From Deltaproteobacteria bacterium (lineage in GTDB: Bacteria; Desulfobacterota; Binatia; HRBIN30; JACQVA1), in NCBI GenBank assembly GCA_016178705.1, contig JACOST010000031.1, positions 310,001-374,000 of the forward strand: a stretch of DNA of 64,000 nucleotides. Reading direction: 5' to 3'. Positions 47,552-59,251 of the stretch are shown piece by piece (the first letter of the stretch is position 1; each line of letters begins with the position of its first letter). Made by a program: the position numbers and the translations under genes. The notes below the pieces were generated by a model. That model was not told where the DNA came from. It searched no databases and saw nothing but the letters and a program-made list of their open reading frames with translations.

Positions 47552-50500
47552 CTACGGCTTGCAGACCAGCGTGAGACCATCGAGGTCGCGCATGAACGGG
47601 ATCGGAGCCGTGTCTTGCGCCCGCGTGATCGTACGCACCAGTATGCGCCCGAGGAACTGACGCGTGCCGATCGTGCGGAGCGGCACACGGATCGCAAACG
47701 CGTCCGTGCACACGTTGGTTTCGGTCGATTCGATCGGCAGCGGCATCGTGGCACCCGTTTTCGGGTCGCGGAACTGCTGCAGCGCCTGGAATAGGCTGGT
47801 GTAGTTCGCTGGATCGCGGCTCGCGAACGGCAGCACGATGTCAATGCCACCGAAGGTCGTCTCGACCCCCGCTCGAACGCCCTGGGGTGTGCACATCGAG
47901 AGCTGGGGGTCGAGGTTGTTGACGCACACCGCGACGCGGAACTCGCAGGCAGCGGGATCGCTGCCATGATCGCACGTCGCATCGTTGTTCTTGCAAGACT
48001 GGGTGCTGTTCAGGCGCCCGCGCGGATCCAGGCGCGGCATATTGCCAGGGTTGACGACCGCCCACTCCAGCAGACAGGCCACCTTGTCGGTACTCGCAGC
48101 GGCATTGCCGGGGATCAGTTCATACGTGCAGGTGCTGCTGCAGCCGTCGCCATTCGTCAGATTCCCGTCGTCGCACTGCTCCATCACTTCGAGCACGCCG
48201 TTACCACAGGTATGTGGCAGCGGGGTTGCCGTCGGCGTGCGGGTCGGCCGTGGTGTGCGGGTGTTGGTCGGAACTCGTGTGGCCGTGCGCGTCGGGGTCG
48301 CCGTCGCGGTCGTAGCTGGCGTTGCGGTTGGGGTCTGCGTCGGCGTGCTGGTTGGTGTCACCGTCGGCGTCTGCGTTGCGGTCGCGGTCGGGGTCTGGGT
48401 CTGGGTCGGCGTGCTGGTTGGCGTCGCCGTCGCCGTGCTGGTTGGTGTCGCCGTTGGTGTCTGCGTTGCGGTCGCGGTCGAGGTCTGGGTCGGCGTGCTG
48501 GTTGGCGTCGCCGTCGCCGTGCTGGTTGGTGTCGCCGTTGGTGTCTGCGTTGCGGTCGCGGTCGGGGTCTGCGTCGGCGTGCTGGTTGGCGTCGCCGTCG
48601 CCGTGCTGGTTGGTGTCGCCGTTGGTGTCTGCGTTGCGGTCGCGGTCGGGGTCTGCGTCGGCGTGCTGGTTGGCGTTGCCGTCGCCGGGCCATACTTAGT
48701 CACGAAGGCATCGGTAAGACCGGCGCCATACGTTGTCTGGAAGACTCCTGCCGTACTCGGAAAGTTCGTCGACGCGGTCTTCCCCGTGACGTAGATGTTA
48801 CAGTTGGCGGAGCACCCGGGGTCCAGCGCGATGCGGCGCCCGTTGTCATCTGCCGAACCGCCCAGGTAGGTCCCAAACAGGAGGCCGCTCGTCCCGGTCG
48901 AGAGGTCCAGCTCAGCGACGAAGGTGTCGACGCCGCCCGCGTTCGTCGACTGGACGGCGGCGGCAGTGGGAAAGTTGGTCGAGTCGGTCACGCCGGTGAC
49001 GTAGACGCGGCCAGCCGAGTCGACGGCGATGCCCGTGCCGACATCCGAGCCGGTGCCGCCAAGATAGGAGGAGTAGGTGAGCGAAGCGGCGCCCGAGAGG
49101 GTCACGTCTAGCCGTGCGACGAAAGCGTCGTTGACGCCCCCGGCGTGGACGGGTTGGAAGGGGTTAAAGATAGGGAAGTTGGTGGCCGTGGTATACCCGA
49201 CGATGTAGGCCACCGTCCCGCTGACGGCGATATCCTGGCCGAGGCTCGCTCCGGTCGAGCCGCCGAGGTAGGTCGAGTACAGGACGACGGTGCCGATGGA
49301 GTTGAGCTCCGTCAGGTAGGCGGAGATTCCGAAGCCACAGCCGAAACCGCCGCCGCTGTTCGTGCTCTGGTACGCGCTTGCCGTCACCGGCCAGTTGCTC
49401 GAATCCGTCCTGCCGCTGACGTACGCGTTGCCAACGCTGTCCACGCTGAGGCCACCCGGCCGATCGAGGCAGTTTCCGCCGAGGTAGGTGGCGTAGACGC
49501 GGGAGGCCGCGCCCGACAGGGTCGTGTCGAACTTCGCCACGAAAGTATCCTCAACATCGGCCTGGTGGCTGGTCTGAAACGCGCCGGGGCTGAAAGGCAG
49601 ATCGGTGGACGTCGTTATACCATTGATGAACGCGCCCCCCGCGCCATCGATGGCGATCGTTATCGGGTTGTCGGCGCCACTGCCGCCGAAGTACGTGGAG
49701 TAGAGGAGGGTGCTGCCGGCGGGGTTGAGCTTTACAACGAACGCGTCATTGCTCCCGGACCAGGTCGAGCTGAAGGCACTGGCAGTTGTCGGGAAGTTCG
49801 ACGAGGCGGTGAGGCCGGTCACATAGGCGTTGTATGAAGCGTCGACACGGATGGCCGTTCCGAAGTCATTTCCGCTCCCGCCAAGATACGTAGAGTACAG
49901 GAGCACCGACCCGGTCGGGTTCAATTTCGTCACGAAGGCGTCCTGACCGCCAGCGTTAGACGTCTGAGGTACCCCCGCCGTGGTCGGAAAGTTGGTCGAG
50001 CTGGTTAGCCCCGCCACATAGGCATTGCCGAGCGAGTCGACTGCGATATCCCACCCTTCGTCCGCGGCGGTACCGCCCAGGAAGGTCGAATAGAGGAGCA
50101 CCGGGTCGATGACCAGCGGTTGCGAGCGGTCGTAGTTGCCGATGGCGAAGGCGACCTGGTCGCCGTCGCGCAGCACGTAACGGCCCACGACGCCGCGGTG
50201 GGCACCGTCGATCTCCTGATAGACCAGGGGAGGCGACATATGCACCTCGCCGCCGGAGAGGTGGAGGACGAGAGCCCCGTCGGCGCCGACCGCCATCTGG
50301 TCAGCACCGACGAAGGTGAGAATGATCGATCCGGGATCAGCCCCGGGCGCGACGACAAAGTCGTGCTCGACCTGGCGTTGATTGCCGTAGTAGATGAGAT
50401 CGATCCCCGGATACACCTCGTGGTAGCGCACCTTGGCATAAGAGGGAACGTTGCTGCGCCACTGTGCCGGATCGTTGCCCAGCAGGTAGTTCACCTTCCC

Positions 50501-50983
50501 GGGCAGCTCCGTCTGGCCCGCCACCTGCGGCTGGGGGTTGGCACCAACAAGCTGCATGCGCAGCACGTCCCCATCGGTGGTGTTGTATTCCCCTTCTGAG
50601 CCGCTCGTCACCCCGGTGGGCTTATGCAGGGCCAGCACCGCCTCGTTGGCGGTCAGAAAGAGTGCGTAGCCGCGGCCCCGCGCCAGGAAGCTGACTTGGG
50701 CATCGGTCTGGCCCTGGTTGGCCTCGAAGCTGAGCGGCAGTTTGCCGTAGGCTTCCATGACTGAGGTTCGGCCGCTCGGCTCGGCCTGGGTCATCGCCGC
50801 CGAGATCGCCGGCCCCCACAAAAGGAGAACGAGGGTGGCCAGGATGAGGGCTGTCGCCCTCGCGAAAGCGACCAGGGGCTTGCGCACGCAACAACGATCG
50901 CTCGTTGCGCGCGATCCGTACATCAAGACCCGCGGCTGCGCGACATTACGATGTCCGTTGTTTCCATGTTGGCCGTACGTCAT
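47552..50983 (-). CDS. Secreted SBBP-repeat protein with DUF4215 and shared C-terminal module
   Basis: About 1143 residues. A signal sequence (about 36-62) is followed by a domain common in SBBP proteins (about 80-300, [19 protein letters not shown]) and about nine SBBP beta-propeller-type repeats ([21 protein letters not shown]). A Thr/Pro linker of about 28-residue units (from 48406) leads to a DUF4215 Cys motif ([16 protein letters not shown]) and a C-terminal module of about 180 residues also found at the ends of the proteins encoded at 54387 and 57000. The function is unknown; a large surface or matrix protein is likely. The gene is divergent from the large regulator. Confidence 0.85.
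48406..48685. repeat. 84-bp tandem repeat encoding Thr/Pro linker
   Basis: Period 84 bp with copies starting at 48406, 48490 and 48574 and a partial copy at 48658. Neighbouring copies differ by a few bases. The unit encodes 28 residues and keeps the frame, so length changes would alter linker length without a frameshift. Confidence 0.85.
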
Positions 50984-51151
50984 GGCGCCCTCCGAATCCG
51001 TCTGCGCGCCGAAGCTGCTGGCCTGGCGCGAGTCGTATATGGCGCCAGTGATACGCTAACTCAACCGTCGCCGCTTGAGGGATTGCTGAGGATTTGGTGA
51101 GGAAAGCGTGGGCGTGTATGGTAAAAACTCAGAAGGGAGAGGGAGCGTTCG

Positions 51152-54100
51152 GTGATCCACGCCTTCGCGGACTTTGAATTGGACGCTGACCTGTATCAGC
51201 TCCGGCGCGGCGGCCAGCCGGTCAAGCTGGAACCCAAGGTCTTCAATGTCCTCGCTCACCTGATCACCTACCGCGACCGCCTGGTTACAAAGCAGGAGTT
51301 GTTCGAGCGACTGTGGCCCGGCGAATTCGTCAGCGATTCGGCGTTGACCTACTGCATCAAGGCCGCGCGCAAGGCGATTGGCGATGACGGTACCGAGCAG
51401 CGCGTGATCGCAACCGTTCACCGCCGCGGCTACCGCTTTATCGCACCCGTAATCGAGCGCACCTCGCCGACCTGCCCGTCAAACTCATCATCACCCAGCG
51501 AGCGCGGAGCAGCGGTCGCCGCGACAGACAGCCCGTTCATCGGCCGAGCGCAGGTGATGGCCACGTTGCAGCGCGCCCTCGCAACCGCTGCCGGCGGCCG
51601 CGGCCAACTCCTCATGCTGGCCGGCGAGCCGGGGATCGGAAAGACGCGTACGGCGGACGAGCTCGCTCATCTGGCCCGCACGCGCGGCATGCGCGTACTC
51701 GTCGGCCGCTGTTACGAGGGCGAGGGCGCACCGCCCTTCTGGCCATGGGCCCAGATTCTGCGCGCGCACCTCCTTCAGCTCCAGCCAGCAACGCTGCCGA
51801 CGGTCCTCGGTCACAGCGCCGAAGACCTCGCGCAACTCGTGCCGGAACTTGCCGAGCGCTTGCCTGGCCTTGCCCGCAAGTCGCCACGCGACGACTCAGC
51901 GCACGCCCGCTTTCAGTTATTCGAAAGTGTGAACAGCTTTCTTGCCGCCGCCAGTCGCGGCCAACCGCTGGCGCTCATCCTCGATGACCTCCATTGGGCC
52001 GACAAGCCGTCACTACTACTGCTGCAGTTCATCGCGCGAGCGATCTCTGACGCCCGCGTGCTGATTCTGGCCACCTATCGCGATACGGACGTGCGGCCGC
52101 AGCATCCGCTCGCCCATGCCTTGGGGGATCTGGTACGCGCGCCGAACAGTCAACGCATCCAACTCGACGGCTTGGAAGTCGACGACGTCGCGTCCTTCCT
52201 CGAGCAGGCGCTCGGTCACAAACCGCCGGTGTCGCTGATCACCGCTGTCCATCAAGAGACCGAAGGCAACCCGTTTTTCGTCACCGAGGTGGTCCGACTC
52301 CTGACCCGCAACGGACAGGTCGAGCGACTGGCGACCGACACGATCGTCCTCGCGGTGCCACCAACCGTCCGGGAAGCGATCACTCGCCGCCTGGCGCCAC
52401 TTTCGTCCGAGTGCAATCGCCTATTGATGGCGGCCTCGGTCATTGGCCGTCAGTTCGCAGTCGCCACATTGAGCCAAGCATTGCAGCCGCTGCGGTCGCG
52501 CATGAAGGAGTCAGCAGAACCGCGGACCGCGGTGCTGGATCTCCTCGATGAAGCGCGGGCGGCGCGCATCATCGATGCGGTCGGACAGTCGGCTGGCGGC
52601 TATCGCTTCGTGCACGCCCTCATTCGTGAGACGCTCTACGACACGCTGAGCACCGCCGACCGAGTCAGCCTGCACCGGCGTGTGGGTGAATCGTTGGAAC
52701 AGACCCACGACCGCGAACGCGGCGGCCACCTGACCGAGTTGGCGCACCACTTTGCGCAGGCCGCCATGGGCGGCGATGCGCGCAAAGGCGTGACCTACTC
52801 AATCCGTGCGGCTGAGTACGCGGCCAGTCAGTTGGCGTACGAGGAGGCGGCCACGCAATACGAACGCGCCTTGCAGCTCAGCGCGCTCGGTGACGAAGTC
52901 AGCGGCCAGCGCGGGGAGCTCTTGCTCGCGCTTGGTCACCACCAATGGCGCGCCGGCGACTTCGCCCGGGCTCGCGCAACTTTCTACGCAGCCGCCGTGG
53001 CGGCGCGCGCCGATCGCGCGCCTGAGCGCTTTGCGCGCGCCGCGCTCGGCTACGGTGGCGGCTTCCGCGGGTTCACGCTCGGCGTGGTCGATCCGGTCCT
53101 GAGCGACCTTTTGGCGGAGGCGCTAACGCTGTTGCCCGACTGCGACAGCGCCCTGCGCGCGCAAGTTACGGCGCGGCAGGCGGTGGCGCTGTACGACATC
53201 CCCAATTCCCTGCCACAACGCGATGCGCTCAGCCGGGCCGCGGTAGACATGGCCCAGCGGATGGGAGATACCGCGTCGCATCTGGGCGCGCTCAGCTGCC
53301 GCCATTGGGCAATCTGGGGACCGGACAATCTCGACGATCGCGACGCGGTAGCCAATGCGATGGTAACCCTCGCAGAAGAAGTCGGCGATCACGAGATGGC
53401 GCTGCAAGCCCATCGCTTCCGCCTCATCGACGCCCTCGAGATCGGTGACATCGACCGCGTACATGTCGATCTCGCCGCCTGCGAAGCCATTACGACCCGG
53501 CTCCGACAGCCGTACTACATGTGGTACGTTCTCGCCTTTCGTGCGCTGCAAGCCTTTCTGGCCGGACGCTTCAGTGACAGCGAGCGTTTTTCGCAAGAAG
53601 CCTTGGCCGCTGGTCAACGCGCGGAGAGCCGGAACGTCAGTCAGATGTATGGCGCACAAACTCTCGCGTTGCGGCGCGAGCAGGGGCGCATCGCCGAGGT
53701 CGAGCCGATGCTGCAGGGTCTCGTCGCCCAGTTTCCGACCGTACCCTCGTGGCGCTGCGGCCTGGCGTATGTGTTGGTCGAGCTGGGCCGACTGGACGAT
53801 GCTCGCATTCAGTTCGAAGTGGTCGCTGCCGACAACTTCGGCGTGATTCCACGCGATACGTTCTGGCTGGTGGCGATGAACGGGGTGAGCGATGTGTGCG
53901 TAGCGCTCGCCGACCGCGAGCGCGCAGACATCCTGTATCGCCTGCTGTTGCCCTACGAAGGACGCAACGCCGTCAACGTCGTCGGCACCTGCGTGAGTTC
54001 GATGGCGCGGAGTCTTGGGTGCCTCGCGGCCTTGGTTGGTCGGCTCGACGATGCGCGCCGGCATTTCGAGGCGGCGATAGCAATGGAAACACGGCTTGGT

Positions 54101-54337
54101 GCCGTACCGCTGCTTGCGCACACTCGCCACGACTACGGGAACGTATTGCTGCGCCAGGGCGCCGCCGCCGATCGCGACGAAGCGCGCCAGCTACTCGCCG
54201 CCGCCGTGCGCGACTTCGAGCAGCTCGGCATGCACAGCTTTGCGCGCCGCGCCGCTCAACTCTTGGCCCACGCTCAGCGGCCCACCGCGTCCGCCACCGC
54301 GAGCCGCAGCAAGGTCACCGCGCTGCGGCGCCGGTGA
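51152..54337 (+). CDS. Winged-helix/ATPase/TPR transcriptional regulator
   Basis: 1061 residues from GTG 51152 with AGGGAGAGGGAG upstream. Residues 1-100 are an OmpR/PhoB-type winged helix (FERLWPGEFVSDSALTYCIK, then HRRGYRF). Residues 128-480 are a MalT/LuxR-type ATPase domain with Walker A GEPGIGKT (158-165) and Walker B LALILDDLHWAD. TPR-like helices fill the remainder. No receiver domain is present, so the signal is probably a ligand or partner bound by the TPR part. It starts 168 bp from the divergent SBBP-repeat gene, which it may control. Confidence 0.87.
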   Translation: MIHAFADFELDADLYQLRRGGQPVKLEPKVFNVLAHLITYRDRLVTKQELFERLWPGEFVSDSALTYCIKAARKAIGDDGTEQRVIATVHRRGYRFIAPVIERTSPTCPSNSSSPSERGAAVAATDSPFIGRAQVMATLQRALATAAGGRGQLLMLAGEPGIGKTRTADELAHLARTRGMRVLVGRCYEGEGAPPFWPWAQILRAHLLQLQPATLPTVLGHSAEDLAQLVPELAERLPGLARKSPRDDSAHARFQLFESVNSFLAAASRGQPLALILDDLHWADKPSLLLLQFIARAISDARVLILATYRDTDVRPQHPLAHALGDLVRAPNSQRIQLDGLEVDDVASFLEQALGHKPPVSLITAVHQETEGNPFFVTEVVRLLTRNGQVERLATDTIVLAVPPTVREAITRRLAPLSSECNRLLMAASVIGRQFAVATLSQALQPLRSRMKESAEPRTAVLDLLDEARAARIIDAVGQSAGGYRFVHALIRETLYDTLSTADRVSLHRRVGESLEQTHDRERGGHLTELAHHFAQAAMGGDARKGVTYSIRAAEYAASQLAYEEAATQYERALQLSALGDEVSGQRGELLLALGHHQWRAGDFARARATFYAAAVAARADRAPERFARAALGYGGGFRGFTLGVVDPVLSDLLAEALTLLPDCDSALRAQVTARQAVALYDIPNSLPQRDALSRAAVDMAQRMGDTASHLGALSCRHWAIWGPDNLDDRDAVANAMVTLAEEVGDHEMALQAHRFRLIDALEIGDIDRVHVDLAACEAITTRLRQPYYMWYVLAFRALQAFLAGRFSDSERFSQEALAAGQRAESRNVSQMYGAQTLALRREQGRIAEVEPMLQGLVAQFPTVPSWRCGLAYVLVELGRLDDARIQFEVVAADNFGVIPRDTFWLVAMNGVSDVCVALADRERADILYRLLLPYEGRNAVNVVGTCVSSMARSLGCLAALVGRLDDARRHFEAAIAMETRLGAVPLLAHTRHDYGNVLLRQGAAADRDEARQLLAAAVRDFEQLGMHSFARRAAQLLAHAQRPTASATASRSKVTALRRR

Positions 54338-54386
54338 CGCTCGACGCCGCGTTCCCATCTCAGCGTCCTTGCCTCATGCGGGCGCT

Positions 54387-56822
54387 CTACGGCGTGCAGA
54401 CCAACGTGAGACCATCGAGATCGATCATAACGGGGATCGGGGACGTGTCCTGCGCCCGCGTGATCGTGCGCAACTGCACGCGCCCAAGGAACTGACGCGT
54501 CCCGACGGTGCGCAACGGCACCCGGATCGCGAACGCGTCCGTGCACACGTTGGTGCGGTTCGAGTCGATCGGCAGCGACATCGTGGCACCCGTGTTCGGG
54601 TCGCGGAACTGCTGCAGCGCTTGGTAGAGGCTCGTGTAGTTCATTGGGTCACGGCTCATGATCGGCAACACGATGTCGATGCCACCGAAGCGCACGTCGA
54701 CTCCAGCCCGCACGCCTTGCGGTGTACAACTCGAGAGCTGCGGGTCGAGGTTGTTCACGCAGACCGCAACGCGGAACTCGCAGGCCAACGGATCGCCGCC
54801 CAGATCACAGGTGGCATCGCCGTTGTGGCAGGTTTGAGTGTTGTTGAGCCGCCCGCGGCGATCGAGCCGCGGCGTGTTGTTCGGATTGACCACGGTCCAC
54901 TCCAACTGACAGGCGCGCTTGTCGGTACTGGCCGCGACGTTGCCGGGGATCAACTCGTAGCGGCAGTTCGCCGCGCAGCCATCACCGCTGACCGCATTGC
55001 CGTCGTCGCACTGCTCGCCCGGCACCAGTGTTCCGTTGCCGCACACGGTGCAGGCGTTGGTGCAACCATCGGAATCGTTGCGATTGCCGTCGTCGCACTG
55101 CTCGGGCGCCGTCACTACTCCGTTGCCGCAAGCGCGGCAATCGTTCGTGCAGCCGTCCGCTGGATTCGCGTTGCCGTCGTCGCACTCCTCGCCTGCGGTG
55201 ACCCGGCCGTTGCCGCAGCGGGTGATCGTGCAATTGAAGTCGCATCCGTCGCCATCAATGAGATTGCCGTCGTCGCATTCTTCACTTCCGTTCAGGACAC
55301 CGTTGCCGCAAAGCGGCGGGCGCGTAGATGTGGGCGTCGGCATCGTTGTGATGGTTGGCGTCGGCAATGCTGTGGTCATGGTTGGCGCCGGAGATTGCGA
55401 TGGCGTGCTGGTGGGCGCTGTGGCGGAGGGCGTGGGGGATGCACTGTCGCCACCTTGATACCGAACCAGGATGCAATGAGCATCAGGATTGCAGCCACCC
55501 ACGCAGGGACCGTTGCGATCCACGGATCCGACTTCGACAATCCGCCCATCGGGCTGTAACACCAGTGGCCCGACATTACTTGCGGCGAAATGATTCATCA
55601 CCACGCCGCCGGACCCAAAGCTTGGGTCGAGCGAGCCATCGGGATTGTAGCGAGCCAGCGCGACATCGCGTATCGGGGCGGCTCCCATATAGCCCACGAC
55701 GGCGTACCCAACGACGACCAATTTCCCATTGGGTTGTAGAGTGAGGTCCGCCGTACCCGCCTCGATTGCCGGCGGGCCAGCGATGACAACCCCACCTGCT
55801 CCGAATGTAGTATCCGGGCTGCCGTCGCCGTTATATCGGACGATGGCGAACTTCCCGTTCGCGCCAAACCCATTGACAACATCGAAGGTTGAACCCGCTA
55901 CAACGATCCTTCCGTCAGGTTGAACCACAACCGCCGATGGAAAGGTGTCATCGTGAACGCTGGTGGTCACAATGCCACCGGTGCCAAAGGCCGGATCAAG
56001 ATTCCCATCGGGCATGAAGCGCACTACCGCGATATGGCTACGGGCGGGAGCGTCGAACGGCCCCGCCGCAACGATCTTCCCGTCGCTTTGCACAGCGAGC
56101 GCTTCCACATGCGCCTCCCTGCCTGCGCTGGCCCCCGGGATGTTGATGGTCACGACACCTCCCATCCCGAACGTTGGGTCGAGGCTGCCGTTCGAGTCAT
56201 ACCGCATCACGAGAAATTGGTTGTGCCCTACCGGATCGATTGTTTTACCACCACCCACAACGATCTTCCCATCGGCTTGCAGAACCAAGTCCGTTGCGAT
56301 TGCCCCAGCGTCTGCAAAGCGGGTTGTGACAACCCCGTTGACCCCGAATGCAGAGTCGAGTGCTCCGTCCGTATCGTATCGAAGCAGCAGCACCCCGAAG
56401 CCACCTGGGTCAAGCTCGGAGGTGCCTACTCCAACGATCTTGCCTGCCGGCTCTACAGCCACCGCGTTTACACCGTCGGCGAAACCACCGACCGACGTGG
56501 TCACAACTCCAAGTGCTCCAAAACTTGGGTCTAGCGTTCCATCACTTCGGTATCGAACCATTGCGACATCACCCCGACTACCATTTGCCATCAACACTCT
56601 TGCAGATCCGGCCGTTACTAGTCGCCCGTCTGGGGCAAGGGCCACAGCTGCACAAGCCGCCAGTTCGTTGGTGGTCACCTCTATCGTCACCACACCCCCA
56701 GAGCCAAACGTCGGATCGAGGTCTCCTGGCGCAGCCCAAGTCGGCGCGGCAGGCACAAGCCCGCTCAGCAGCACCAAGCCGATTGAACCTGATAGGTTTC
56801 TCTTTAGTAGAGTTCGCGTCAT
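54387..56822 (-). CDS. Secreted delta-60-repeat protein with DUF4215 repeats and shared C-terminal module
   Basis: 811 residues from the ATG of MTRTLLKRN, with GGGAGG 6 nt upstream. After the signal peptide come about seven delta-60 repeats (GDLDPTFGSGGVV, LAPDGRLV or LQPDGKIV strands), a Thr/Pro linker and four DUF4215-type Cys repeats ([14 protein letters not shown]). The final module of about 180 residues closely resembles those of the 47552 and 57000 genes. It is convergent with the regulator gene, 49 bp away. It is probably a surface or secreted structural protein. Confidence 0.85.
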   Translation of the reverse strand: MTRTLLKRNLSGSIGLVLLSGLVPAAPTWAAPGDLDPTFGSGGVVTIEVTTNELAACAAVALAPDGRLVTAGSARVLMANGSRGDVAMVRYRSDGTLDPSFGALGVVTTSVGGFADGVNAVAVEPAGKIVGVGTSELDPGGFGVLLLRYDTDGALDSAFGVNGVVTTRFADAGAIATDLVLQADGKIVVGGGKTIDPVGHNQFLVMRYDSNGSLDPTFGMGGVVTINIPGASAGREAHVEALAVQSDGKIVAAGPFDAPARSHIAVVRFMPDGNLDPAFGTGGIVTTSVHDDTFPSAVVVQPDGRIVVAGSTFDVVNGFGANGKFAIVRYNGDGSPDTTFGAGGVVIAGPPAIEAGTADLTLQPNGKLVVVGYAVVGYMGAAPIRDVALARYNPDGSLDPSFGSGGVVMNHFAASNVGPLVLQPDGRIVEVGSVDRNGPCVGGCNPDAHCILVRYQGGDSASPTPSATAPTSTPSQSPAPTMTTALPTPTITTMPTPTSTRPPLCGNGVLNGSEECDDGNLIDGDGCDFNCTITRCGNGRVTAGEECDDGNANPADGCTNDCRACGNGVVTAPEQCDDGNRNDSDGCTNACTVCGNGTLVPGEQCDDGNAVSGDGCAANCRYELIPGNVAASTDKRACQLEWTVVNPNNTPRLDRRGRLNNTQTCHNGDATCDLGGDPLACEFRVAVCVNNLDPQLSSCTPQGVRAGVDVRFGGIDIVLPIMSRDPMNYTSLYQALQQFRDPNTGATMSLPIDSNRTNVCTDAFAIRVPLRTVGTRQFLGRVQLRTITRAQDTSPIPVMIDLDGLTLVCTP

Positions 56823-56999
56823 GATCGCCTCCCTTGCCTTCACGGCAACCCTACGAACCGGCGTAGCCCAGGCCTGCCGCATCACGCCGCGCGGATTTCG
56901 AATCGACGACCCGTCTCATTGCACTATTCCTCCATGCTCGATCGCCCGTCTCCGATACGAAGAACGCCACGAACCAGAGGAACATCTCCCAGCGGTGAC

Positions 57000-58613
57000 C
57001 TACGGGTTGCAGACCAGGGTCAACGTATCCACATCCGTTTGACTGATCGGAGAGGTAAACAGCGACCGGGACACCATCACCAGACGCAGTCGGCCAGCAA
57101 CGACTCGAGTCGTGCCGTGCATGGCGACCCGAATCGGAAACACATCAGTGCAGACTCCCACTTGGCTCGACTCGACTGGCAGCGCGACGCTCGCCCCATC
57201 GCTCGGATCGCGCAACCCCTGGAGCGCCTGCAACAGGCTATTGTAGTTGGCGTCGTGCGTGTTCGGCGCCACGATGTCGATCCCGCCCGCTCGTGTGTCC
57301 AGTCCACCCCGTACCCCTTGCTGCAAACAACTGGACAACTGTGTGTCCGCGTTGTTGACGCAGGCCGCCACGTGAAACTCACAGGTCTTGTTGCTTGTAC
57401 TCAGATCGAAGTCGCAGGTCGGGTCGTTGTTTCGACAGGTCTGCACGCGGTTGAGTCGGCCGCCGCTATCCAGCCGTGGTGAGTTGTTCGGATTCACCAC
57501 CGAGAACTCGAACAAACAGGCGCGCGCGTTCGTCACCGCCGAACCGGCGGCGTTTCCGGGAATCAATTCATAGCGGCAGCTCGCATTGCAGCCATCGCCG
57601 TTGATCGTGTTGCCATCGTCGCACTGCTCGCCGGGCTGGACAATGCCGTTGCCACACGGAGCGGGGGTAGCAGTGCTGATCGTCGGAGTGGGCGTTGCCG
57701 TGGCGACCCCATCTGTAGGTGTAGGCGTGCTTCCCTGAGTGGCTGTACGAGTCGAAGTATTGAACGTCGTGGGGGTCGTAGTGCTGATCGCAGGAGTGGA
57801 CGTCGGGGTGACGATCCCACCAGTAGGCGTACTTCCCTGAGTGACTGTACGAGTTGGCGTGTTGAAGAGAAGACTCTGCGAGGCAGCCTCTGTCGATAGA
57901 CCATACGGGGGTGAGTCGATTGTGAAACCTGCGGCCGCTACCCCATAGCTACTACCCATTTGGCTGGCCACGAACACGATCAGCTCGCACGTGGACGCGC
58001 TGGTGCAGTCGCCCCGCAGAGCGAAGCCACCCGGGTCCGCGCCAAAATGAACCGGGACGTCGATCGCACCGAAGAGCATCGTCGGCCCGGTAACCGAGCA
58101 GGCCGGCATCGAAATCGAGCGAGAGATCGTTGGAACATCAACATCGACTGGCACGCGTGCATCGGATGTGGCCACGTCCACGAGCGCCGCATAGTTGACT
58201 CCCGCAATGCTGCCGCCTGCCGGCAGAGCCGCGCTCACCCGTCTGCCATCAGGCAACGTCAGCTCACCGGCCCCACCTTGTGCGCTTGTGTTGAGAGCAG
58301 CGCAGTTCATGAAGTTGTCGCTGAAGCCCGTGAGCACGGTGGTTCGAATCCTATCGGGCAGGAGACCGCCGCTACCGACGGAAAGAGCCGTGAGCTCAAT
58401 CTCCCCGAACGACCCGAACTCTGCACAGTTGTAGGCGCCTCCCGAACTCATCGCGACACTCGTAACCTGCGTCAAGGCGCTGCTGGTGCTTATGATCATA
58501 TAGACGTGATTGTCGTTTGACCTGCAACTCTCCACCGTAAGCGCCTCGGCCGACCCGGCCACTAAGAAAGCCAGGCCGATAGTCAGGCCAAGTATCCGCA
58601 AACCACGCTGCAC
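57000..58613 (-). CDS. Secreted protein with shared Cys-rich C-terminal module
   Basis: About 537 residues from GTG 58613, which directly precedes a signal peptide ([19 protein letters not shown]). Upstream open sequence lacks protein character. Residues 30-270 form an unrecognised beta-rich domain with several cysteines. Two Thr/Pro stretches follow, then one DUF4215 motif ([16 protein letters not shown]) and the C-terminal module of about 180 residues shared with the genes at 47552 and 54387. The N-terminal parts of the three proteins differ, so the module is the common element. Confidence 0.75.
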
Positions 58614-59251
58614 CGTAGCCTGCGGCTGCTCGCCATGGTCCGAGAAGGAAGTCTGACCAACACCACTCGTGCTGCGCGATCCGAAACCGAAACGCGGCGA
58701 GCGGTGCCCCTCTCTCCGATTCCTAAGCTGGCCGGCGCAGTGCGCCGACCTCAATTGGGTTACGACCAGGTCGGCCGCTGCACCGCTTCAGCGGCGGACC
58801 GTTAGGAGTCCACCGATACCGGAACCGCGGTTAACGCCAGGACGTGCGTGCGTGCGTGCGTGGTGCGTGGTGCGTGCGTGGTGCGTGCGTGCGTGAAAGA
58901 TTCGAGCCAATCATCGAGCCCCTCCTACAACTGTCACGGACAGCAGACCGAACGAACCGGACGGACAGATCAAACGCGGACGCATGTCGGCTAACATGAT
59001 CTCTCACAGCAGGTCAAGAACAATCCCGCTGAGAGATGGCCACGCGACTCCGCTGCGGGACTCTCTGCCTGTGTCGCCGCAAGGGAGAACGTCCCGTGCA
59101 CGACAGCCCTCTGCGCAACGCGACGGGCGGAAGACCCGTCCGCTCGCGAACGACTCACGCTGCCCTGGCGCGCCCTCCACCCTATCGCGGCGCCGTCATG
59201 TTGCGCGACTCTCGATTGCCTCTCCTCGCAGCGCGCGCTAGCCTGTCCACG
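58614..59251. other. 638-bp intergenic region without a convincing gene
   Basis: Between the divergent starts of the Cys-rich secreted protein and the Uma2-like gene there is no credible frame. It contains a GCCGCTG / CAGCGGC hairpin near 58770-58795 and a GTGCG-rich simple repeat at 58842-58896. Promoters for both genes presumably lie here but no clear boxes are seen. Confidence 0.5.
58842..58896 (+). repeat. TGCG/GGTGCG simple-sequence repeat
   Basis: Irregular runs of GTGCGTGC interrupted by GGTGCG units over 55 bp, non-coding. Such tracts are prone to length variation. Confidence 0.8.

Follow-up and report, generated by a model that had tools for sequence, protein, structure and literature searches.

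Three genes on the minus strand of a 64,000-nucleotide stretch of Binatia DNA (the window; contig JACOST010000031.1, positions 310,001 to 374,000) encode proteins with unlike N-termini that each end in DUF4215 followed by a 190-residue tail, as seen in the list of open reading frames (ORFs), BLASTP comparisons and Pfam and NCBIfam searches. The tail is a real, unnamed secreted domain family for which Pfam and NCBIfam are both blank, and it has been seen so far in one bacterial class. Together with DUF4215, the tail is copied within genomes as a cassette. Judged from its sequences, it is a domain of about 180 residues that is autonomous, extracellular and independent of its cargo, and it is referred to here as the module. 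The three genes (carriers) and their parts lie in the window as follows.

47552..50983, minus strand: carrier 1, 1143 amino acids (aa), with a signal-peptide-like N-terminus, DUF7948 (aa 86-295), six SBBP stretches, a Thr/Pro-rich linker, one DUF4215 and the module
48128..48208, minus strand: DUF4215/TIGR02232 repeat of carrier 1 (aa 926-952), which precedes the module
47555..48124, minus strand: eight-cysteine module of carrier 1, 190 aa, reaching the stop
54387..56885, minus strand: carrier 2, 832 aa, with a signal-peptide-like N-terminus, delta-60/DUF5122 repeats, a Thr/Pro-rich linker, four DUF4215 and the module
54960..55310, minus strand: array of four DUF4215 repeats of carrier 2, its outer limit set by the DNA match with the paralogue L054
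54390..54959, minus strand: eight-cysteine module of carrier 2, placed by sequence comparison
57000..58754, minus strand: carrier 3, 584 aa as listed, with an N-terminal region without a convincing family, one DUF4215 and the module
57576..57656, minus strand: DUF4215 repeat of carrier 3 (aa 367-393), which precedes the module
57003..57572, minus strand: eight-cysteine module of carrier 3, placed by sequence comparison

From YELIPGN to the stop, each of the three tails is exactly 190 aa long and contains exactly eight cysteines. The tails of the SBBP and delta-60 carriers were 82% identical in BLASTP (E 3.6e-117) and the other two pairs were 54% and 56% identical (E 1.1e-66 and 8.2e-68), a similarity far beyond chance. 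These identities confirmed the proposal of the initial annotation that proteins with unlike N-termini share a C-terminal module after DUF4215. Every one of the shared blocks it had named was visible in the BLASTP alignment and the conserved cysteines were borne out, both here and in the wider family described below; its tail length of about 180 residues was replaced by the measured 190. Between the tails of carriers 1 and 2, the base differences at codon positions 1, 2 and 3 numbered 26, 21 and 61, with nonsynonymous and synonymous divergences (dN and dS) of 0.13 and 0.59. The tails are therefore coding and under purifying selection.

The DUF4215 stretches directly before the tails number one, four and one in carriers 1, 2 and 3. 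That of carrier 1 scored 25.8 bits in Pfam, just below the cut-off of 27, and 49.2 bits with TIGR02232, for which the cut-off is 20.8. All three carriers have a hydrophobic, signal-peptide-like segment near the start. The ORF list starts carrier 3 at a TTG (58754); an in-frame GTG at 58613 lies just before the signal-peptide-like segment and is the likelier start. No convincing Pfam or NCBIfam family except DUF4215 was found in carrier 3.

The initial annotation had described the module as unrecognised, and this held against Pfam-A and NCBIfam, neither of which gave a convincing match. At E of 10 or less, the three tails returned a single row from Pfam-A (24736 models), PF25781, with E 0.2 and 11 bits against 27, and no family from NCBIfam (18950 models). 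A sequence search of the PDB with the module gave no match. When 53 copies of the family were scanned singly, three mutually unlike Pfam families appeared at E of 0.1 or less, each in one copy (the best was DUF3022, E 0.0014, in an output that gave E-values without scores against cut-offs), as did five NCBIfam families, again each in one copy (best E 0.012). Because each occurred in one copy only and the families were unlike one another, these scattered rows were read as chance.

The neighbouring repeat, DUF4215/TIGR02232 (myxo_disulf_rpt, PF13948), is also Cys-rich, adjoins the module in many carriers and tracks it across the class. It is, however, a separate short repeat with profiles of 47 and 38 positions, which scored over cut-off on the stretch before the tail and not on the tail itself. 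The DUF4215 array gave one chance match in the PDB (E 0.1). A literature search for DUF4215, TIGR02232 or the names of the repeat found no paper, and a search on secreted and surface domains gave nothing on Binatota among the matches listed, which is not a claim of absence from print.

As the initial annotation had proposed, a profile of the three tails was built and other carriers were sought with it. In the genome of the window (own genome), this profile gave seven full-length copies with strong scores, two that were divergent but clear, and some weaker rows, and a wider profile brought the number of carriers to 14. In the relatives set of 58 genomes, which includes the own genome, 37 had a module match. 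Across the class of the window, a 53-row profile (A2) matched 55 of 118 genomes, again with the own genome, at 1 to 29 matches each (445 rows). An even sample of the phylum gave matches in 5 of 198 genomes, all in the class of the window or closer; none was found among genomes marked only as of the same phylum, where most misses were not listed singly. The class scan scored at most 29 candidates per genome and the phylum scan at most 17, so that a genome without a match may still carry the module. When the genomes of 84,980 species were scanned with a pattern, six relatives turned up, all of them apparently from genomes of the class (G040, G053, G013 twice, G073 and G088); its sensitivity is limited, and relatives outside the class are still possible. 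Among viral contigs (IMG/VR), 25 pattern stretches were found and none was a relative, and plasmids gave no module match. The abstract of PMC8262859 equates Binatota with UBP10, and the class of the window is placed in Candidatus Binatota. Over the 118 class genomes, with kinship ignored, 54 had both the module and DUF4215, one had the module only (G008), two had DUF4215 only (G064 and G074) and 61 had neither.

The anatomy of the family was assessed on 114 carriers with 127 copies. These were drawn from among the higher-scoring of the 445 rows, to which all 14 carriers of the own genome and nine of the family relative G001 were added, so that low-scoring copies are under-sampled. Four copies that were not full length were dropped from the column counts, leaving 123, and the position counts exclude five frames truncated at the 3' end, leaving 109. 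Eight columns were Cys in all 123 full-length copies and one was Asp in all of them (D52 of the carrier 2 tail). Near-invariant residues were E20 (112 copies), D48 (112), D72 (113) and W21 (106). The same profile gave no match at E of 10 or less on reversed frames. A crude hydrophobicity rule detected a signal-peptide-like segment in 90 of the 108 carriers with a complete 5' frame, and from the eight invariant cysteines and these starts we infer four disulfides. A home-made profile placed DUF4215 up to 15 residues ahead of 52 copies and up to 15 residues behind 36; 76 of the 127 had one on at least one side.

The cargo of the module is diverse. Of the 105 upstream regions that reach 60 aa or more, 101 were scanned (left out were L116 twice, L130 and L134; one listing gave 25 of 43 families), and the Pfam families identified include Lactonase, SGL, NHL, FG-GAP, SBBP, Peptidase_S8, Peptidase_M10, kumamolisin pro-domain, Metallophos, LamG_3, CBM96 and sortilin. 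Class-wide, the carriers include subtilases, a matrixin, a kumamolisin pro-domain, purple acid phosphatase domains, FG-GAP/ASPIC proteins, sortilin-like propellers and a CBM96; among the cargo types are beta-propellers, proteases, phosphatases and lectin-like domains.

At the DNA level, carriers 1 and 2 are 80% identical over 631 nt, a match that starts at the DUF4215 repeat and finishes precisely at the stop codon; upstream of DUF4215 the two do not match. Carrier 2 and its paralogue L054, about 175 kb away, are 82% identical over 932 nt that span the four DUF4215 and the tail, again to the stop. L054 also carries delta-60 repeats, so this pair is partly kin in cargo. In a tree of the tails, fourteen from the own genome and G001, all of C-terminal carriers, formed one starred clade (99, Shimodaira-Hasegawa-like approximate likelihood ratio test), in which the N-termini are SBBP, delta-60, LamG, NHL, NosD-like, Big, discoidin-like, galactose-binding-like, lactonase-like or without a known domain. 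The limits of the paralogue matches and the diverse N-termini of this clade indicated that the copied unit is DUF4215 plus module, joined to new cargo.

We propose, at about even confidence and from sequence and model, that the module may be a folded adhesive domain, locked by disulfides and perhaps bound to calcium, by which diverse secreted cargo is retained at the cell surface or in the matrix. The carriers would be exported by Sec, to judge from their signal-peptide-like starts, and would fold in the periplasm, where the four disulfides would form. Passage through the outer membrane would follow, possibly by way of type II secretion, a guess from the near-universal secretin match: the gspD model, the only component sought, matched 116 of 118 class genomes at E of 1e-3 or less (91 over cut-off). 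The module itself would be an immunoglobulin (Ig)-like beta-sandwich, perhaps calcium-stabilised through the acidic E20, D48, D52 and D72, and its ligand would lie in the envelope or matrix. The fused propeller, protease or phosphatase would thereby be kept at the cell surface by way of the Thr/Pro linker and a DUF4215 stalk, with the module acting as a plug-in for surface retention or adhesion, unlike a C-terminal signal peptide. As a further and more tentative possibility, the module might be the address label of a class-confined surface-display system, in which a cargo-independent, four-disulfide sandwich would be recognised by an envelope receptor and would serve to mount diverse enzymes and propellers, up to twelve or more in one genome, on the cell surface. 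The type II secretin was rejected as a discriminating partner of the module, since a match in 116 of 118 genomes leaves presence and absence of the module unexplained.

The fold was predicted with AlphaFold2. With the module of a relative, L075, and the modules of the same nine proteins as were used for carrier 2 (below), the model was fair, with a predicted local distance difference test (pLDDT) of 74.4 and a predicted template modelling score (pTM) of 0.75, and showed a beta-sandwich with one long helix. Its best Foldseek rows were the collagen-binding domain ACE19 (E 2.0e-3, probability 0.96, template modelling (TM) score 0.30, root-mean-square deviation (rmsd) 10.8), one of the microbial surface components recognizing adhesive matrix molecules (MSCRAMM), and CNA (E 5.4e-3, probability 0.89). 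With VIA, the best row was integrin alpha-V residues 603-738 (Z 7.6, rmsd 3.8 over 124 residues), followed by Gram-positive pilins (Z 6.5-7.2) and ClfB (Z 6.3, rmsd 3.9 over 133). MSCRAMM and Ig-like adhesin domains have a DE-variant Ig fold. The collagen- and fibrinogen-binding MSCRAMM domains (ACE19, CNA, ClfB and Sdr) and the pilins are extracellular, as the module probably is, and the module would resemble them in its predicted Ig-like sandwich arrangement; it differs in its four putative disulfides and in the distance of the matches, with Foldseek E 2e-3 at best, a TM score of about 0.3 and 7-9% identity in the first rows. These models suggest an Ig-like beta-sandwich at most. A new fold is not claimed, and the fold rows show no function.

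Anchor tails on related proteins were also compared. A loose membrane-plus-basic tail rule flagged 5 of 109 carriers, none convincing by eye. A stricter rule flagged one of 109 (L107, at a stretch inside the module) against 5 of 38 DUF4215 proteins without the module (Fisher p 0.005). The 38 comparison frames were taken at loci chosen for DUF4215, 14 in the own genome and 20 elsewhere, with three frames truncated at the 3' end removed. The five flagged tails resemble MYXO-CTERM or IPTL-CTERM tails, and others among the 38 end in dockerin-like or unnamed stretches. This distribution is compatible with a module that takes the place of an anchor tail, without demonstrating it. Tails with the look of MYXO-, IPTL- or PEP-CTERM occur on other DUF4215 proteins of the own genome (L168, L172 and, by look only, L173). 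Such tails are a short membrane helix with Arg, whereas the module is a predicted folded, soluble domain. The membrane-plus-Arg tail of L172 scored 16.1 of 20 with MYXO-CTERM and 14.1 of 20.5 with IPTL-CTERM, both below cut-off, and L168, with a similar tail, gave no sorting-tail match and a choice-of-anchor U domain below cut-off. The class may thus have its own sorting-tail variant. L172 also carries NCBIfam choice-of-anchor Q and U domains (NF041518 and NF041766); these accessory domains on a sister DUF4215 protein belong to other families, and the carriers of the window do not match them.

Two further groups were observed among DUF4215 proteins without the module. In the own genome, L163 (ELWxxDGT-repeat) and L165 (delta-60) share a C-terminal stretch ending ...IDV.D.NDF, as does L179 of G013, which looks like a second unnamed C-terminal module. 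L174, L178, L180, L182-L185, L187, L191 and L192 are frames of 1160-1649 aa of a DUF4215-rich protein that recurs in the class and has a conserved FPLP.F.GL....EVS end.

Several points weigh against an adhesive Ig-like module that works with DUF4215 in surface retention. The AlphaFold2 model of the carrier 2 tail, from nine rows, was weak (pLDDT 64.5, pTM 0.65), gave nothing under E 1e-3 in Foldseek and had a best VIA Z of 5.1. For the L075 model too, no Foldseek row fell under E 1e-3, the best rows had TM scores near 0.3 with an rmsd near 11, and by the tool's own note a VIA Z below 8 may reflect a mere common arrangement. The contrast with 5 of 38 frames is small, ignores kinship and comes from a picked sample. 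The invariance of the cysteines was measured on copies that a profile had both found and aligned, and this profile favours such columns. Lastly, 51 of 127 copies had no DUF4215 within 15 aa by the home-made profile.

It is possible, though we consider it fairly unlikely, that the module is instead a ligand-binding domain for external glycan, matrix or cells, comparable to a carbohydrate-binding module, on freely released proteins and without a retention role on the producer. The predicted sandwich with adhesin domains among its nearest rows would suit this reading, as would the hydrolase carriers, on which binding modules are usual, and the presence of the module at either end or in two copies. 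The same module, however, is found on propellers without a known enzyme, and no carbohydrate-binding family matched it in the Pfam scans.

The position of the module bears on a second alternative, in which the tail is a C-terminal export or sorting signal, like the C-terminal domain of the type IX secretion system (T9SS). A dedicated translocon or sortase would read the tail, carry the protein through the outer membrane and possibly also cleave it. The T9SS C-terminal domain is a small beta-sandwich that is strictly C-terminal and occurs once per protein. The module likewise sits on unlike cargo, mostly at the C-terminus: 79 of the 109 intact frames stop within 5 aa of the last module, and 12 of the 14 carriers of the own genome are C-terminal. 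A further 10 carriers have 6-40 aa after the module (in four of them, one further DUF4215), and in the two frames of L119 an insertion splits the module and the frame ends just after the last module motif. By eye, the insertion in both is dockerin-like (EF-hand type) and lies before the last strand. In the remaining 18, more than 40 aa follow the module, including L122 (2840-6013), the end letters of which look out of frame so that its far end is unsure.

Thirteen of the 114 carriers have two copies. The first copy starts within 120 residues of the frame start in 16 listed frames; a few of these, for example L061, L111 and L139, are short or broken or have a DUF4215 ahead of the module. By eye, the module follows a signal-peptide-like start in L063 and L064 (own genome), L073 (G001), L103, L132, L136 and L155; in the two of the own genome, 140 and 295 aa come after it, and the modules themselves end in the same L.L.C.P-type motif. 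In a quick tree, C-terminal and internal places required at least eight changes (first copies of doubled carriers counted as internal). The invariant C-terminal position in the initial annotation therefore applies to the three carriers of the window but not to the family: a C-terminal place is a habit, strong in the lineage of the window but not defining, and a free C-terminus is not needed. The extensions of more than 40 aa, the copies just after a signal peptide and the doubled modules make a C-terminal export or assembly signal unlikely. The module also differs from T9SS C-terminal domains in its eight cysteines and in its lack of a Pfam or NCBIfam match. A search for SprA_N (PF14349), of the SprA translocon, was empty in all 118 class genomes, but also in all 14 controls. 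Of the roles that the initial annotation had suggested, repeated use on unlike cargo stood and anchoring is plausible, as is adhesion, whereas export or assembly is not favoured.

Among the carriers with an N-terminal or mid-protein module, L103, L141, L142, L144, L155 and L156 share by eye a Cys-containing domain (words like DG.G..DC.GG) after the module and DUF4215. L063 and L073 share another region, of about 290 aa, after the module.

We regard it as improbable that the module is a structural cap that lends stability by protecting the ends of long repeat proteins. Four likely disulfides, the end position in most carriers and the adjacent Thr/Pro linkers would fit such a cap, but the module is also found on enzymes and at N-termini, and the invariant Asp with three near-invariant acidic residues suggests a conserved site, possibly one that binds a metal for structural reasons. 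Passive spread, in which recombination between DUF4215-rich genes keeps the tails alike without a common function, would explain why paralogue identity begins in the repetitive DUF4215 region and ends at the stop codon, but is hardly credible given the purifying selection and the eight cysteines kept across copies with as little as 26% identity to the carrier 2 tail.

Between carriers 1 and 2, on the plus strand (51152-54337), lies a gene that by eye encodes a winged-helix regulator with an ATPase and a tetratricopeptide-repeat-like part.

Cargo-independent accessory domains of secreted proteins are a known kind, and it is this module family that is unnamed. The importance of the finding is moderate until a ligand or receptor of the module is identified; the module is small enough to be expressed alone, so that direct binding tests are possible. 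A name for it would extend annotation to a substantial share of the secreted proteins of the class and would provide a handle on how extracellular enzymes are kept.

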